A DNA stretch of 64,000 nucleotides, taken from assembly GCF_000425205.1 (NCBI RefSeq), contig NZ_AULI01000012.1, positions 1 through 64,000 of the forward strand, read 5' to 3'. Position 1 is the stretch's first letter; each line of letters starts with the position of its first letter. A model generated the notes under the pieces. It did no database searches. It saw only the letters and a program-made list of their open reading frames with translations, and was not told where the DNA came from. A program made the position numbers and the translations under genes. Below, one piece after another: positions 2,100 through 13,814 of this stretch. Origin of the DNA: Pontibacillus halophilus JSM 076056 = DSM 19796 (GTDB lineage: Bacteria; Bacillota; Bacilli; Bacillales; BH030062).

Positions 2100-2717
2100 A
2101 TGGAACCAGTGTGGCTCAGCTTTATCGTATTAGGGTTGGGGACAATGTTTTTAATCGGGGAGATGCTCGTTAACACAAGGGGGATCTTCGGAGTATTAGG
2201 ATTCGGGCTTGTGACGTTGCATTTTATTTCGTATCTTTCTCCCTATATGGTGGGTATCTCTATTGTTCTATATTTTGTTGGACTGCTGTGTATCTTTATA
2301 GATGGGAAGTTTCTAAATGATGGAACGTTAACAACTCTTGGTCTTGTTAGCATGCTCATTACGGTCGGAATGAGTTCTCCTTCTTGGCAAGCGGGGTTAT
2401 ACGGAATATCAGGTGTTATGGTCGGTGCGGCGTCTTCCTTATTGCTATTGAAAGCATTCCCGAAACGAAAGATGTGGGACCGAATTACACTTCTTGACAG
2501 GATGACATCTGAGTCAGGCTATTCGACAGTTAATGAATCCTACCACGAGTTAATCGGGCAAATAGGGGAGACGAAAACGCCTTTACGCCCTGTTGGGACT
2601 ATGCGATTAAACGATCAAGATTATAGTGTGGTTTCAAATGGCGAATGGTTAAATAAAGGGGAACAAGTTAAAGTTGTTGATGTGGATGGTACAAAGATAC
2701 TAGTAAAAAAGTTCTGA
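2100..2717 (+). CDS. NfeD family membrane protein
   Basis: Protein of 205 residues with four or five hydrophobic segments in the first 130 residues and a soluble C-terminal beta domain (LIGQIGETKTPLRPVGTM..., GEQVKVVDVDGTKILVKKF) typical of the NfeD OB-fold. NfeD proteins usually partner with flotillin/SPFH proteins in membrane quality control; no SPFH gene is adjacent here. ATG at 2100 follows GGAGGAGAGGGGAC, which makes it the start; an in-frame TTG at 2082 falls before this ribosome binding site. It is transcribed divergently from yqfZ. The family call is firm, the cellular role unknown. Confidence 0.8.
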   Translation: MEPVWLSFIVLGLGTMFLIGEMLVNTRGIFGVLGFGLVTLHFISYLSPYMVGISIVLYFVGLLCIFIDGKFLNDGTLTTLGLVSMLITVGMSSPSWQAGLYGISGVMVGAASSLLLLKAFPKRKMWDRITLLDRMTSESGYSTVNESYHELIGQIGETKTPLRPVGTMRLNDQDYSVVSNGEWLNKGEQVKVVDVDGTKILVKKF

Positions 2718-2730
2718 TTACATGAATGAT

Positions 2731-2769
2731 TTAACATTGGTTTAACACGATGTTTACACTCCGTTGTCA
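2731..2769 (+). promoter_or_regulatory. Pho box (PhoP-binding repeats) before the chemoreceptor gene
   Basis: Four hexamers at an exact 11-bp period: TTAACA (2731), TTAACA (2742), TTTACA (2753), TTGTCA (2764), each separated by 5 nt. This is the Bacillus PhoP box form (TTAACA-like direct repeats). A possible -10 (TATGAA, 2785-2790) lies 15 nt after the last hexamer. The sequence match is clear; regulation by PhoP is inferred. Confidence 0.7.
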
Positions 2770-2812
2770 TACTCTAGTGTGGGATATGAAATAAAGATAT
2801 GGGGTGTTCTTC

Positions 2813-4588
2813 GTGAAAAGACTGAAGTTTCCCACGAAATGGAAGGGTGAGCGTGTTAATGGATGGAAGGAAAAAGTACGTTTAAGAAGCCGTCTTCACC
2901 GTTCCGAGAAGGATTATTGGCATCAGTTCTCATTTCAAACTCGCTTAATCGCAATTGTAAGTATGTTAGTTGTTGCATCAATTGCAATCATAGGATTTAT
3001 GTCTTATTCAAAGGCGAAGGATAGTCAAATGGAGCTGGTCAATGACCGACTCGTGCGAGAAACTGCCTCAGTCCGTGACATGGCTGAGCGGATGATGTAT
3101 GCATACATTGGAGACGAGGAAGAATTTCAGTCACAGATGAACGAAGTGATTGCCTCGCAAAAGTCTGATTTAGTACAGGATGGATTTGGTGCGAAAATCC
3201 ACCTACTTAAAGAGGGAGAAATTCTTGCCTTAGCGAATAACGGGAAAGAGACGAGTGATTTCCCTGAAGAGCTTGCCATTGAAATTCAAATGATAGAAGA
3301 TGGCAGTGAATTTGGAGAGTTTAACGGGGAGCAAAGGATGTTTGCATACAGTGCCATACAGGAACTTAAGGGCGTATATGTAATTAGTGTTCCTGCTAAA
3401 GATTTTATGCACCCAATTAACCAGTTAGCCAAATATACGATTACCGTTGGCGTAATCAGCTTAGTACTTATCGTACTTATCGTTTCATTATTTATTCGAG
3501 CTATGGTACGTCCAATTAAGGAGTTACAACACATTATGCATGCTTCGAGTGAGGGGCGCTTCGAGGGGATTGATTCCATATCAACCACGATTCCAGAAGT
3601 TCGCTCCTTGGCTAATAGTTATAAGGAAATGACGGCTCGCATTGAATATATGCTCATGAATATAGGTGGGGCTGTGAATCAATTAGCTTCTACAAGTGAA
3701 GAGCTGGCTGTTTCATCTTGTAAATTAGGGGATAGTCAGCAAGATATGAAGAAAGAATTAACAGAAGTAGTAGAGGGGACGGAACAAACAGAAGGTACGT
3801 TCCTTGAACAGATGAGCTTGTTCTCTGAATTGAAACACTATATGGACCGTTTACTTATGTCTTTCAATAACATGTATGAGGAACAGAAACTGATGAATCA
3901 GTCGGTTTCAAGCGGGGATGAGAGTATAGCTTCCATCATGAATGCGTTGCATACCTATCACGATGGATTTAAGCAGATGACAGTAAAGATTCAAGAATTT
4001 GAAGACTACACCGTTAACATTGATGTAGCGGGTAAGATGATTCAAGATTTAGCGGAGCGTACAAAGTTACTTGCTTTAAACGCCACCATTGAGGCTGCAA
4101 GAGCGGGGGAAAATGGGAAAGGCTTTGCAGTCGTTGCGAGCGAAGTTCGAAAACTAGCCGACAATTCGAGAGAAGCTGCTATTGTTATAGATGAGAAAAT
4201 GAAAGAAACCCTCGTTATCAGTCAATACTTATCAACAGAATTTCATGGGGTGTACAACCAGCTTACAACCCACTTAGACCATGCAAATTCTTCTAAAGAA
4301 TCGTTCGATCATCTCAGAAAGCACATTCAAACCTTTAATGACAGTATTGATGTATCCAAGCAGGATGTTACACAAGCTGAATCGCTTATCCCCCTCATGG
4401 AGGACGCTTTCAATGAGTTTCATAAAGTGACAAAGCATACGTTGCAATCAGGAAAGCGATTAATTGAAACGTCTGATATGCAAGATCAGCAAATGAAAGA
4501 GACTGATGAAGTTCGGATAGCGCTCATTTCACTTTCAAAGGAATTATCAACCATAACAGATATAAACCGTAAACACCCTAGCCAATAA
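2813..4588 (+). CDS. Methyl-accepting chemotaxis protein
   Basis: Transmembrane chemoreceptor of 591 residues. After a basic cytoplasmic leader there is TM1 (about residues 45-64), an extracytoplasmic sensor domain of about 150 residues, TM2 (about 210-232), a HAMP region, and a long helical signalling domain whose tip contains [32 protein letters not shown] (given as family hallmark; shown here in two parts: [18 protein letters not shown] and [14 protein letters not shown]). It would signal to CheA/CheW in the cytoplasm. The ligand is unknown. GTG at 2813 has GGGG 8 nt upstream and is preferred over the GTG at 2804. It stands alone, between an NfeD gene and yqgB, and is preceded by a Pho box, which suggests a phosphate-linked role (inference). 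Confidence 0.9.
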
Positions 4589-4610
4589 GTCAAGGGTGTT
4601 TGTTTTTGTT
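4571..4610 (+). terminator. Terminator of the chemoreceptor gene, overlapping two stop codons
   Basis: AAACACCCT (4571-4579) pairs perfectly with AGGGTGTTT (4593-4601), followed by GTTTTTGTT. The stem lies inside the last codons of the chemoreceptor gene and the 3' end of convergent yqgB, so both genes end in one very compact 40-bp region. Confidence 0.8.
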
Positions 4611-5069: not shown

Positions 5070-5162
5070 AACATCACTCCTATAAATACCTCGCTACATC
5101 AATTTTAAAAAATCCAATAAATGAAATCAATTTAAATTTCTTCAAGTTATTTTAGGTTGCTT

Positions 5163-5233
5163 TGTAAAGTCTATGTAAAGATGGTGTGTAACCGACAAAA
5201 AATCCTTTACAAGGGGTTTACCATTAATTAATA
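5163..5233. promoter_or_regulatory. Pho-box-like repeats in both orientations between yqgB and the Na/Pi cotransporter gene
   Basis: Towards the cotransporter gene: TTTACA (5206), TTTACC (5217), TTAATA (5228), at an 11-bp period. Towards yqgB, on the minus strand: TTTACA hexamers whose plus-strand copies TGTAAA lie at 5163 and 5174 (11 bp apart), with a weaker TTACAC 12 bp further. The repeats are less perfect than those before pstS and before the chemoreceptor gene. Confidence 0.5.
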
Positions 5234-5299: not shown

Positions 5300-6937
5300 T
5301 TGGATATTCAAGACATTATCTTTCAGTTTGTTGGAGGATTAGGTATCTTTCTATTCGGCCTCAAGTATATGGGGGACGGTCTGCAAAAAGCAGCAGGCGA
5401 CAAACTACGTACGATTTTGGACAGATTTACGACAAATCCGTTCATGGGCGTGCTAGCTGGTATTATTGTAACAATTCTAATCCAGAGTAGCTCTGGGACA
5501 ACGGTGTTAACCGTGGGTCTTGTTAATGCTGGATTTATGACACTAAGACAAGCCATCGGTGTCATTATGGGTGCAAACGTAGGGACAACGGTTACGGCCT
5601 TTATTATCGGTATCGAATTAAAGGAATACGGATTACCGATTCTTGCAGTTGGTGCACTGATGATCTTCTTCTTTAAGAATAAGAAACTCAGCTACCTTGG
5701 TCAGACGTTATTCGGTTTCGGTTCATTATTCTATGGATTGAAATTAATGAGCAACGGTATGAAACCTTTACGTAGTTTAGAGGCATTCCAAGATTTAACC
5801 GTAAGTATGAGTGATAATCCTATTCTTGGGGTTGTTATCGGTACGATATTTACGGTAATTGTACAAAGTTCTAGTGCAACAATTGGGATCTTACAAGGAT
5901 TATTTGAACAAGGAGCTATTGATATTAATGCTGCTCTTCCAGTACTATTTGGAGACAATATCGGTACGACAATTACAGCAATCTTAGCTTCAATTGGTGC
6001 GAGCGTAGCAGCAAAACGTGCTGCATTTACTCACGTAATCTTCAACGTGGTAGGGACAACCATCTTCTTAGTTGGCTTAAGTCTCTATACACCGGTAGTA
6101 GAGTTCGTGAAGGATGCACTTGGGTTAAATGCAGAAATGACAATTGCTTTCGCGCATGGAATCTTTAACTTGACTAACCTTATTATTCAGTTTCCGTTCA
6201 TAGCTGTGCTAGCGATAATTGTAACGAAGTTGATTCCAGGGGAAGATTCTGTAGTCGAATCAAAACCAAAACACTTAGACCCAATTTTCATTGAACAATC
6301 ACCATCTCTTGCCCTTGATCAGGCTAAGAACGAAGTGATGCGAATGGGTGAATTTGCATATCAGGGTCTAGAAGAAGTTTCCCTTTATATGAACAATCAC
6401 AGTCGTAAGCACGCGGATAAAGTCATGCAGATTGAAGAAGCGTTGAATAATCTAGACAGACAGATTACAGATTATCTCGTGAGCTTATCTAGTTCATCAC
6501 TAACAGAACTAGAAAGTGAAAAGCATACAGCCTTACTTGATGCTGTACGTGACTTAGAACGAATTGGTGACCACATGGAGAATATGGTGGAACTTGTAGA
6601 CTATAAAGTATCCAATAAAGTGGACCTTACAGAAGAAGCACAAGCTGACTTGAACGATATGGTTAATCTTACGATGATTACAGTGAAGCAAGCTGTTCGT
6701 ACTCTTGAAACAATGGACCGCGAAGAAGCGCTCTCTGTTACACGCAAGGAAGATCAAATTGACCAAAACGAGCGTTTATATAGAAAGAAACACATCCTTC
6801 GTATGAATGAAGGGAAATGTTCTGGAATGGCTGGCATTGTCTTCGTTGACATGTTAAGTAACCTTGAACGTATTGGAGACCACTCTGTAAATATCGCAGA
6901 AGAGGTTCTTGGGAAAGATAAAGAAAATGTAATGTAA
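5300..6937 (+). CDS. Na/Pi cotransporter family protein with PhoU-like C-terminal domain
   Basis: Membrane protein of 545 residues of the NptA/YjbB type. It has two Na/Pi-cotransporter repeats, each with the inverted-repeat signature QSSS (ILIQSSSGTTV near residue 60; VIVQSSSATIG near 190), separated by hydrophobic segments. From about residue 345 follows a helical PhoU-like domain (LERIGDHMENMVEL, LERIGDHSVNIAEEV). It moves inorganic phosphate with sodium. TTG start at 5300 is preceded by GAAGGGATGACTCC. The direction of transport (uptake or export) cannot be told from sequence. The Pho-box-like repeats upstream and the nearby pst operon fit a phosphate role. Confidence 0.88.
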   Translation: MDIQDIIFQFVGGLGIFLFGLKYMGDGLQKAAGDKLRTILDRFTTNPFMGVLAGIIVTILIQSSSGTTVLTVGLVNAGFMTLRQAIGVIMGANVGTTVTAFIIGIELKEYGLPILAVGALMIFFFKNKKLSYLGQTLFGFGSLFYGLKLMSNGMKPLRSLEAFQDLTVSMSDNPILGVVIGTIFTVIVQSSSATIGILQGLFEQGAIDINAALPVLFGDNIGTTITAILASIGASVAAKRAAFTHVIFNVVGTTIFLVGLSLYTPVVEFVKDALGLNAEMTIAFAHGIFNLTNLIIQFPFIAVLAIIVTKLIPGEDSVVESKPKHLDPIFIEQSPSLALDQAKNEVMRMGEFAYQGLEEVSLYMNNHSRKHADKVMQIEEALNNLDRQITDYLVSLSSSSLTELESEKHTALLDAVRDLERIGDHMENMVELVDYKVSNKVDLTEEAQADLNDMVNLTMITVKQAVRTLETMDREEALSVTRKEDQIDQNERLYRKKHILRMNEGKCSGMAGIVFVDMLSNLERIGDHSVNIAEEVLGKDKENVM

Positions 6938-12704: not shown

Positions 12705-12743
12705 TTTACACAACGTTTACATTTCATTTATATGTATTTAAAA
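12705..12743 (+). promoter_or_regulatory. Pho box of the pst operon
   Basis: Four hexamers at an exact 11-bp period: TTTACA (12705), TTTACA (12716), TTTATA (12727), TTAAAA (12738). A -10-like TAATAT follows at 12753-12758. This is the arrangement known for PhoP-P activation of pstS in Bacillus. Confidence 0.85.
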
Positions 12744-12821
12744 CTGTCTCTTTAATATGAGTATTGTCAGTTGATAACGCAACTGAATACAACAATTCAC
12801 AAATTGTAGGGGGAAAAAGAA

Positions 12822-13814
12822 ATGAAAAGTTTCAAGCGTCTAGCACTACTTTTCACACTAATCCTAGCACTTGGCGCACTTGCAGCGTGCGGAAGTTCTG
12901 AAGGAGAAAATGACACAAGTGGTGAAAACAACGAAAACACTGAAGGTGCTTCTGAAGGAATTTCCGGCGAAGTAGCAATTGATGGATCATCTACTGTATT
13001 CCCAATCATGGAGCGTCTTACTGCTGAGTATCGTCAAGATGCACCTGATGTTGAACCTGTACTTAACTCTTCCGGTTCTGGTGGCGGATTTAAGAAGTTC
13101 ACTGTAGGTGAAACTGATTTCTCTAACGCTTCTCGTCCTATTAAAGATGAAGAAAAACAAATCGCTGAAGAAAACGGCGTTGAATACACTGAGCTAGAAG
13201 TAGCTAAAGACGGTCTTTCCGTAGTAGTTTCTCAAGAGAACGATTTCCTTGAAAATGTTTCAGTTGAAGAACTTAAGCAAATCTTCCTTGCTGAATCTGG
13301 CGCAACTAAATGGTCTGACATTAACTCTGAATGGCCTGACGAAGAGATCGTAATCTTCAGCCCAGGTCATGACTCTGGTACTTTCGACTACTTCAATGAA
13401 GTAATCCTTGAAGATAACGAAATGAAAGAGGGCGAAAACGTAACTCTTTCTGAAGATGACAACACACTTGTAAAAGGTGTACAAGGTAACCCGAATGCAA
13501 TTGGTTACTTCGGTTACGCTTACTACATTGAGAACAAAGATTCTCTTAAAGTTCTAGGTATCTCTGAAGGAGAAGGCGAGGCAGTTAAGCCAAATGCTGA
13601 CACTGTACAATCTGGAGAGTACACTCCACTATCTCGTCCACTATTCACTTACGTTAACAACGCTTCTCTTAAAGATAAGCCTCAAGTAGCTGATTTCGCT
13701 AAGTACGTTCTAAACAACGCTGGCGCTGCAGCTGAAGAAGAAGGTTATGTGGCTCTTCCACAAGAGAAATTGGACGAGCAACTTGAAGAAATCAAAGGAA
13801 TCATTGGTGAGTAA
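12822..13814 (+). CDS. pstS: Phosphate ABC transporter substrate-binding lipoprotein
   Basis: PstS captures inorganic phosphate outside the membrane and hands it to PstCA. The 330-residue precursor has a lipoprotein signal peptide with lipobox LAAC (Cys23), a Ser/Glu/Asn-rich linker, and the PBP-like domain with the phosphate-binding motifs GSSTVFP (near 55), [11 protein letters not shown] and [15 protein letters not shown] start after AGGGGGAAAAAGAA. First gene of pstSCAB-phoU. The codon bias is strong. A hairpin without T-run separates it from pstC and probably lets pstS mRNA accumulate over the rest. Confidence 0.96.

Follow-up and report, generated by a model that had tools for sequence, protein, structure and literature searches.

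The 86-bp gap (positions 2718–2803) between a gene for an NfeD-like membrane protein, which ends at 2717, and a chemoreceptor gene of Pontibacillus halophilus is, judging from sequence comparison, very probably a PhoP-activated promoter of the pstS type that drives the chemoreceptor gene. The direct repeats located in this gap are real and not a product of chance. PhoP binding, activation rather than repression, induction on starvation and a taxis response would be expected of such an arrangement, and starved cells probably make the receptor to find phosphorus. The window (the whole stretch of DNA that was analysed, 64,000 nucleotides) contains the following features.

2103–2717, plus strand: NfeD-like membrane protein, the upstream neighbour
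2720–2725, plus strand: degenerate slot ACATGA, where pstS promoters and some homologues have a fourth repeat
2731–2736, plus strand: PhoP-type repeat 1, TTAACA, 37 bp 5' of the start of the −10
2742–2747, plus strand: PhoP-type repeat 2, TTAACA, 26 bp 5' of the start of the −10
2753–2758, plus strand: PhoP-type repeat 3, TTTACA, 15 bp 5' of the start of the −10
2765–2773, plus strand: proposed extended −10, TGT-CATACT, holding most of TTGTCA (2764–2769)
2801–2806, plus strand: Shine-Dalgarno-like sequence GGGGTG
2813–4588, plus strand: chemoreceptor gene, 591 amino acids from GTG 2813 (membrane helix, predicted single-Cache sensor, membrane helix, HAMP, MCP signalling domain)
4570–4602, plus strand: hairpin spanning the stop codon, with a T-rich tract behind it (−12.5 kcal/mol, z −2.7)
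5300–6937, plus strand: Na/Pi cotransporter with PhoU domains, in the same phosphate neighbourhood
12705–12758, plus strand: pstS box used for comparison, with repeats at 12705, 12716, 12727 and 12738 and a −10 TAATAT at 12753
12822–13814, plus strand: pstS, first gene of pstSCAB-phoU

Read directly, TTAACA, TTAACA, TTTACA and TTGTCA followed one another with N5 spacers at an exact 11-bp period, so that direct TTNACA-like repeats of the kind looked for in a Pho promoter stood before the receptor gene. The initial annotation had called this box as good as the one before pstS, and scoring with a four-hexamer weight matrix written from the PhoP consensus bore this out (26.9 for the receptor box, 27.0 for the pstS box). 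With these two boxes excluded, the best site in the window on either strand scored 19.1 with the same matrix, and 26.9 was reached at no position of a 3,000,000-base Markov simulation. In the 3.67-Mb genome three TTHAYA hexamers with N5 spacers occurred without mismatch at two places, the receptor box and the pstS box, while about 0.14 such perfect triple repeats were expected genome-wide from base composition. Allowing up to two mismatches gave 123 sites versus 79 for a reversed-pattern control; since this excess is small, the top of the list alone is informative and the weaker sites are mostly noise. The pattern of three repeats plus the extended −10 had a single perfect genomic match, the receptor promoter, and 15 sites with up to three mismatches versus 6 for the reversed control.

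The 11-bp period of the four hexamers, also claimed in the initial annotation, is exact; as a repeat, however, the fourth (TTGTCA) is poor, and an extended −10 that takes in most of it is the better reading. Circularity was avoided by anchoring the promoters on their best repeat pair alone and then locating −10-like hexamers. In 81% of the 88 dereplicated receptor promoters such a hexamer was located 15 bp from where the second repeat starts, and no other offset outside the repeats exceeded 23%. In pstS promoters, too, the last repeat starts 15 bp before the −10 (in the window, repeat at 12738 and TAATAT at 12753), and this common offset suggests that the receptor promoter of the window consists of three repeats and TGT-CATACT. 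The literal four-repeat box was rejected as the mechanism, the homologues reading TTGGTATAAT, CTGTATAATT or TTGTCATAAT at the fourth position, which is their extended −10.

The receptor box thus has three repeats, with ACATGA at the place of the fourth in pstS. Among 158 receptor promoters, strong repeats in register numbered three in 98, two in 52, four in 7 and one in 1, whereas four were found in 22 of 30 pstS promoters. Because four repeats are usual before pstS and rare before the receptor, they were not treated as required, and the receptor class appears to be a lighter version of the pstS promoter. Transcription would start at about 2780, so that the repeats would lie between about −49 and −22; in activated promoters of Bacillus subtilis, PhoP binds a core region that extends from about −60 to about −22. 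One point against a PhoP-activated promoter is that CATACT matches TATAAT at only four of six positions. Quite unlikely, in our estimate, is that PhoP binds here and represses or only modulates, or that transcription comes mainly from a sigma-A promoter whose −35 is TTAACA at 2731 and whose −10 is TACACT (2755–2760). A consensus scan did return TTAACA(2731)-18-TACACT, yet the five sites it found in the region compare with 6.6 (sd 2.7) in shuffled sequences, and in the homologues, as in pstS, 15 bp separate the −10 from the start of the last repeat. The TTAACA-18-TACACT pair was accordingly rejected as a promoter, such sites being no commoner than in shuffles and this one lying outside the conserved register.

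The likely start codon is GTG 2813 rather than the mechanically listed GTG 2804, since the latter overlaps the Shine-Dalgarno-like GGGGTG; the same GGGGTG precedes the starts of homologues. The hairpin at 4570–4602, which was missed by the consensus scan (loop limit 8), is a likely terminator, so the receptor gene is probably transcribed alone.

Full-length orthologues were found at E ≤ 1.2e-66 in 27 of 61 genomes, and one further genome (G016) has one at 4e-46. A sensor-domain alignment scan built from eight homologues added 80 named loci, mostly in Bacillaceae genera (for example Halalkalibacter, Gracilibacillus, Cytobacillus, Sutcliffiella, Robertmurraya, Anoxybacillus and Alkalihalophilus). 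The resulting 109 homologues include two doubtful members, L036 (24% identical, E 4e-46) and L037 (24%, E 9e-33), of which L037 may not be an orthologue; identity to the window protein is 24–58% with these two and 28–58% without them. Among 299 genomes sampled from the order, the gene was present at E ≤ 1e-45 in 106, with one match each, covering 54 of 116 genera; the other 193 had no orthologue at this cut-off.

With the consensus-based four-hexamer matrix the median score was 18.7 at the 80 named loci versus 1.6 before 541 neighbouring ORFs, and a score of at least 14 was reached at 67 of the 80 versus 16 of the 541. An independent matrix was trained on 29 pstS promoters, that of the window being left out. 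Its four-hexamer form reached at least 12 before 23 of 29 and 49 of 80 orthologues, versus one of 40 other chemoreceptor genes, these being hand-picked top-of-list matches in orthologue-bearing genomes. Reduced to three hexamers and a −10 at fixed offset, the model reached at least 12 at 106 of the 109 homologue promoters and at 45 of 49 held-out ones, the thresholds not having been set in advance and the geometry having been learned on the 109. The held-out set was obtained from 78 new orthologue promoters of the 299-genome sample by dropping 29 near-identical ones. All 30 pstS promoters (29 of them training data) also passed, versus 2 of the 40 other chemoreceptor genes and 18 of the 541 neighbouring ORFs, and 13 of these 18 were, by their coordinates, pstS or Na/Pi-transporter genes. 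At a threshold of 16 the corresponding counts were 93/109, 41/49, 30/30, 1/40 and 7/541. The promoters below 12 were L108, L124 and L145 among the 109 and L298, L297, L302 and L269 among the held-out; since the match in L269 starts only at residue 84, the upstream sequence scored for it may be misplaced.

In the window the model of three hexamers and a −10 gave 28.6 for the receptor and 25.5 for pstS; a 5-Mb Markov simulation held no position at 25 or above and predicts 0.0036 matches of at least 12 per 300-bp region. When periods of 7 to 16 bp were tested, three-hexamer scores rose at 11 bp only and on the strand of the gene only. The 11-bp score was 18.9 for the receptor (at most 4.0 elsewhere), 24.7 for pstS and 2.9 for other chemoreceptor genes. 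A lack of the repeats before orthologues would have spoken against the initial annotation; they were instead conserved in register and strand, including in most held-out promoters. Together with their near absence before other chemoreceptor genes and the pstS-like geometry, this favours reading the gap as a putative Pho-type promoter.

The gene order in the window is ispG (GcpE), NfeD, receptor, DUF1189, Na/Pi cotransporter, sodA, an MFS gene, a penicillin-binding protein, pstS and pstC; pstA, pstB and phoU were labelled by place and used as queries in the neighbour searches. In 20 of the 28 orthologue-bearing genomes no more than 13 kb separates the receptor gene from pstS; in seven the two are on different contigs, and one genome (G040) had no pstS above cut-off. 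The receptor gene directly adjoins pstS in G036 (same strand) and G049 (divergent), and among the named loci it stands directly before pstS in Alkalihalophilus pseudofirmus OF4 and Peribacillus saganii. Bacillus methanolicus also carries the gene.

This linkage, often in an ispG-sodA-pst block, would also suit a functionless box kept passively through gene order as a relic of the pst block. We consider that extremely unlikely. A score of at least 12 was retained in 51 of the 52 named loci whose flanks, as far as read (up to 6 kb), contain neither a phosphate gene nor a gene of the ancestral block, as it was in 26 of the 28 near pst, Na/Pi or ispG-sodA genes, the loci having been sorted by hand with weak PstB-like matches (23–33% identity) counted as other ABC proteins. 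The register is precise despite the wide divergence of the proteins, and the box is absent from other neighbouring ORFs.

Weaker Pho-like repeats stand back to back in the gap between the DUF1189 gene (minus strand) and the Na/Pi cotransporter gene (plus strand) of the window, at 5151–5190 on the minus strand (four-hexamer score 19.1) and at 5206–5233 on the plus strand (15.3); inspection by eye showed no clear −10 at the pstS offset for either. In related species, the Na/Pi cotransporter genes L068:2236-3933 (minus strand), L093:8933-10576 and L108:8841-10484 score 14.3 to 25.3 with the receptor promoter model, which suggests that this cotransporter may be a Pho member in some lineages.

The genome holds a row of malate dehydrogenase, an OmpR-family regulator and a PhoR kinase (NF046044, 516 bits, cut-off 400), with polA further down. 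The regulator passed no NCBIfam cut-off (best model YycF/WalR, 280.7, cut-off 340) and was therefore named PhoP by its place between malate dehydrogenase and phoR. Both phoP, by place and by matches to OmpR-type regulators, and phoR were thus found. CheA is also present (PF02895); among the 61 genomes, the six that gave no match to CheA have no receptor orthologue either. Taken with the conservation of the box and its specificity relative to other chemoreceptors and neighbours, the presence of phoPR and cheA strongly supports, by comparison, a family of PhoP-activated chemoreceptors.

A box for another OmpR-family regulator was considered unlikely, with WalR (YycF) as the serious candidate. 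The WalR consensus is TGTWAH-N5-TGTWAH, close to the reverse complement of TTWACA-N5-TTWACA, and by this consensus the half-sites are near-identical on the opposite strand. The accessible part of one WalR paper, in which this consensus was not found, terms WalRK and PhoPR closely related, and the YycF model is the one against which the putative PhoP scores best, below its cut-off. Against WalR, the repeats occur on the strand of the gene only and with the −10 offset of pstS promoters; the variants TTAATA and TTAAAA, which the receptor boxes share with the final repeats of pstS, are at odds with TGTWAH; the matrix was built from pstS promoters alone; and the receptor is linked to pst, with sites of the same pattern before alkaline phosphatase. 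PhoP is thus the preferred regulator.

Other Pho-like sites were found in the same genome. Among the two-mismatch sites of the full pattern, one precedes an alkaline phosphatase gene and another closely follows phoR. The alkaline phosphatase gene (L226:671-2134, minus strand, contig C24) has its similar box directly 5', as expected for the Pho regulon, and offers a useful internal positive control. The site behind phoR (C35:56688-56730, about L218:1689-1731) is followed by two Band_7 (SPFH) genes, located in the interval from phoR to polA. At C8:108426-108475 (L219) TTTACA-like hexamers recur at 11 bp over a long stretch, with only short ORFs close downstream on that strand and a longest nearby ORF of 74 amino acids; a small RNA or small protein under Pho control is possible there. 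At C11:4680-4722 (minus strand, L223) a two-mismatch site of the full pattern is overlapped or closely followed by a 64-amino acid ORF alone. On contig C23 a 605-amino acid protein with an endonuclease/exonuclease/phosphatase domain (L224:1750-3567) has two good upstream repeats (TTTACA and TTAACA) and is possibly a phosphorus-scavenging nuclease.

The receptor has an MCP signalling domain (PF00015, 90.8 bits) and a HAMP match just under cut-off (PF00672, 23.5 bits, cut-off 25). Its sensor, of about 140 residues, was modelled from 56 sequences (mean pLDDT 86.7, pTM 0.76) as one long and one further helix with five strands, and is predicted to have a single-Cache fold. The closest folds, single-Cache sensors with moderate scores, were TlpB (3ub6, Z 12.9), Staphylococcus aureus WalK (4ywz, Z 11.9) and models of B. 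subtilis receptors, sequence identity to TlpB and WalK being about 7–12%; no CtpH- or CtpL-like structure was among the fold matches listed. Foldseek with the sensor model returned nothing at E ≤ 0.001. Pfam searches of the 56 sensor domains gave no consistent family, no Cache model and nothing linking the sensor to phosphate, the best-supported names matching 4 of the 56. Just after the first membrane helix an RLxRE motif was present, with R, L, R and E invariant in the 56 sequences. The NCBIfam WalK model matched receptor residues 43–287 at 30 bits, far under its cut-off of 725. Kinship of the sensor with that of PhoR is not claimed; the BLASTP match between receptor and PhoR (E 0.047) covered the HAMP region only.

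Under the favoured mechanism, PhoR would phosphorylate PhoP when phosphate is scarce, and phosphorylated PhoP on the three TTNACA repeats, all on the same side of the helix between about −49 and −22, would recruit RNA polymerase. Transcription from the extended −10 would turn on the single chemoreceptor gene together with pstS and alkaline phosphatase. The membrane-anchored product, with its single-Cache sensor, HAMP domain and MCP signalling tip, would then join the CheA array in greater amount and alter the swimming bias of phosphate-starved cells, most likely towards a source of phosphorus. Candidate signals would be phosphate delivered by PstS, the CtpL route of Pseudomonas, and a phosphorus compound that the receptor itself binds.

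A reading with considerable, though lesser, likelihood is that the receptor is PhoP-controlled and responds to a signal unrelated to phosphorus, such as pH, osmolarity or some amino acid that starved cells use, or has a role outside chemotaxis. The ligands of Cache sensors are many and varied, and the fold resemblance is a generic one; the sensor is without an identifiable phosphate site, and across the named loci the sensor domains are only 20–35% identical to that of the window. Co-location with pst argues circumstantially for phosphorus instead, as does the sensing of phosphate by the phosphate-regulated receptors of Pseudomonas, described in the accessible parts of PMC4926252 and PMC9864684.

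If phosphorus is the signal, co-location with pstS makes the PstS route attractive. We put forward tentatively, as a reading that may well prove wrong, that this is a phosphate-taxis receptor of Gram-positive spore-formers, switched by PhoP and reading extracellular phosphate through the PstS lipoprotein of the neighbouring co-regulated operon, and so an independent, Cache-based counterpart of CtpL-PstS. The receptor family is present in roughly one third of the species sampled from the order.

The Bacillus Pho regulon is usually seen as a matter of uptake, scavenging and remodelling of the wall. If a conserved chemoreceptor stands under a pstS-type promoter, movement would join these functions, and an orphan receptor family, that of the 106 sampled genomes, would gain a growth condition together with a few candidate ligands; whether Gram-positive bacteria show phosphate taxis would become directly testable in non-pathogenic carriers of the gene such as A. 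pseudofirmus OF4 and B. methanolicus. What appears to be new is a chemoreceptor branch of the Gram-positive Pho regulon, an interpretation supported as far as sequence goes. Searches of the open literature listed no paper that reports a PhoP- or phosphate-controlled chemoreceptor in Bacillus relatives or Bacillota, which is weak evidence of novelty, subscription papers being largely outside their coverage. The words chemotaxis and chemoreceptor were absent from the accessible part of a Pho review (PMC4415409), and that of PMC4744853 held nothing on phosphate-controlled chemoreceptors of Bacillus relatives; a differential-expression table for Paenibacillus sonchi includes several chemoreceptor genes (PMC7793946, seen in part).

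The receptor promoter resembles the Bacillus Pho-regulon promoters of pstS and alkaline phosphatase in its TTNACA-like 11-bp repeats on the strand of the gene, the last of them 15 bp before the −10, and differs from them in having three strong repeats rather than four, an extended −10 and a chemoreceptor as its target. The likeness to TlpB and WalK lies in the predicted single-Cache fold; the difference lies in the low identity and the lack of a Pfam Cache match. In Pseudomonas aeruginosa low phosphate raises CtpL and CtpH, and PstS with phosphate stimulates CtpL, according to the accessible parts of PMC4926252 and PMC9864684; in that of PMC4926252 the CtpH sensor is a four-helix bundle and the cloned CtpL sensor comprises residues 27–324. 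Like these two, the window receptor would be a chemoreceptor made at low phosphate, under a different regulator and in a different phylum. Unlike the CtpH bundle described there, its sensor is modelled as a mixture of helices and strands, and at about 140 residues it differs from the cloned CtpL sensor as well. Binding of phosphate-loaded PstS marks the CtpL type; on this point the window receptor offers its genomic co-location with pstS only.
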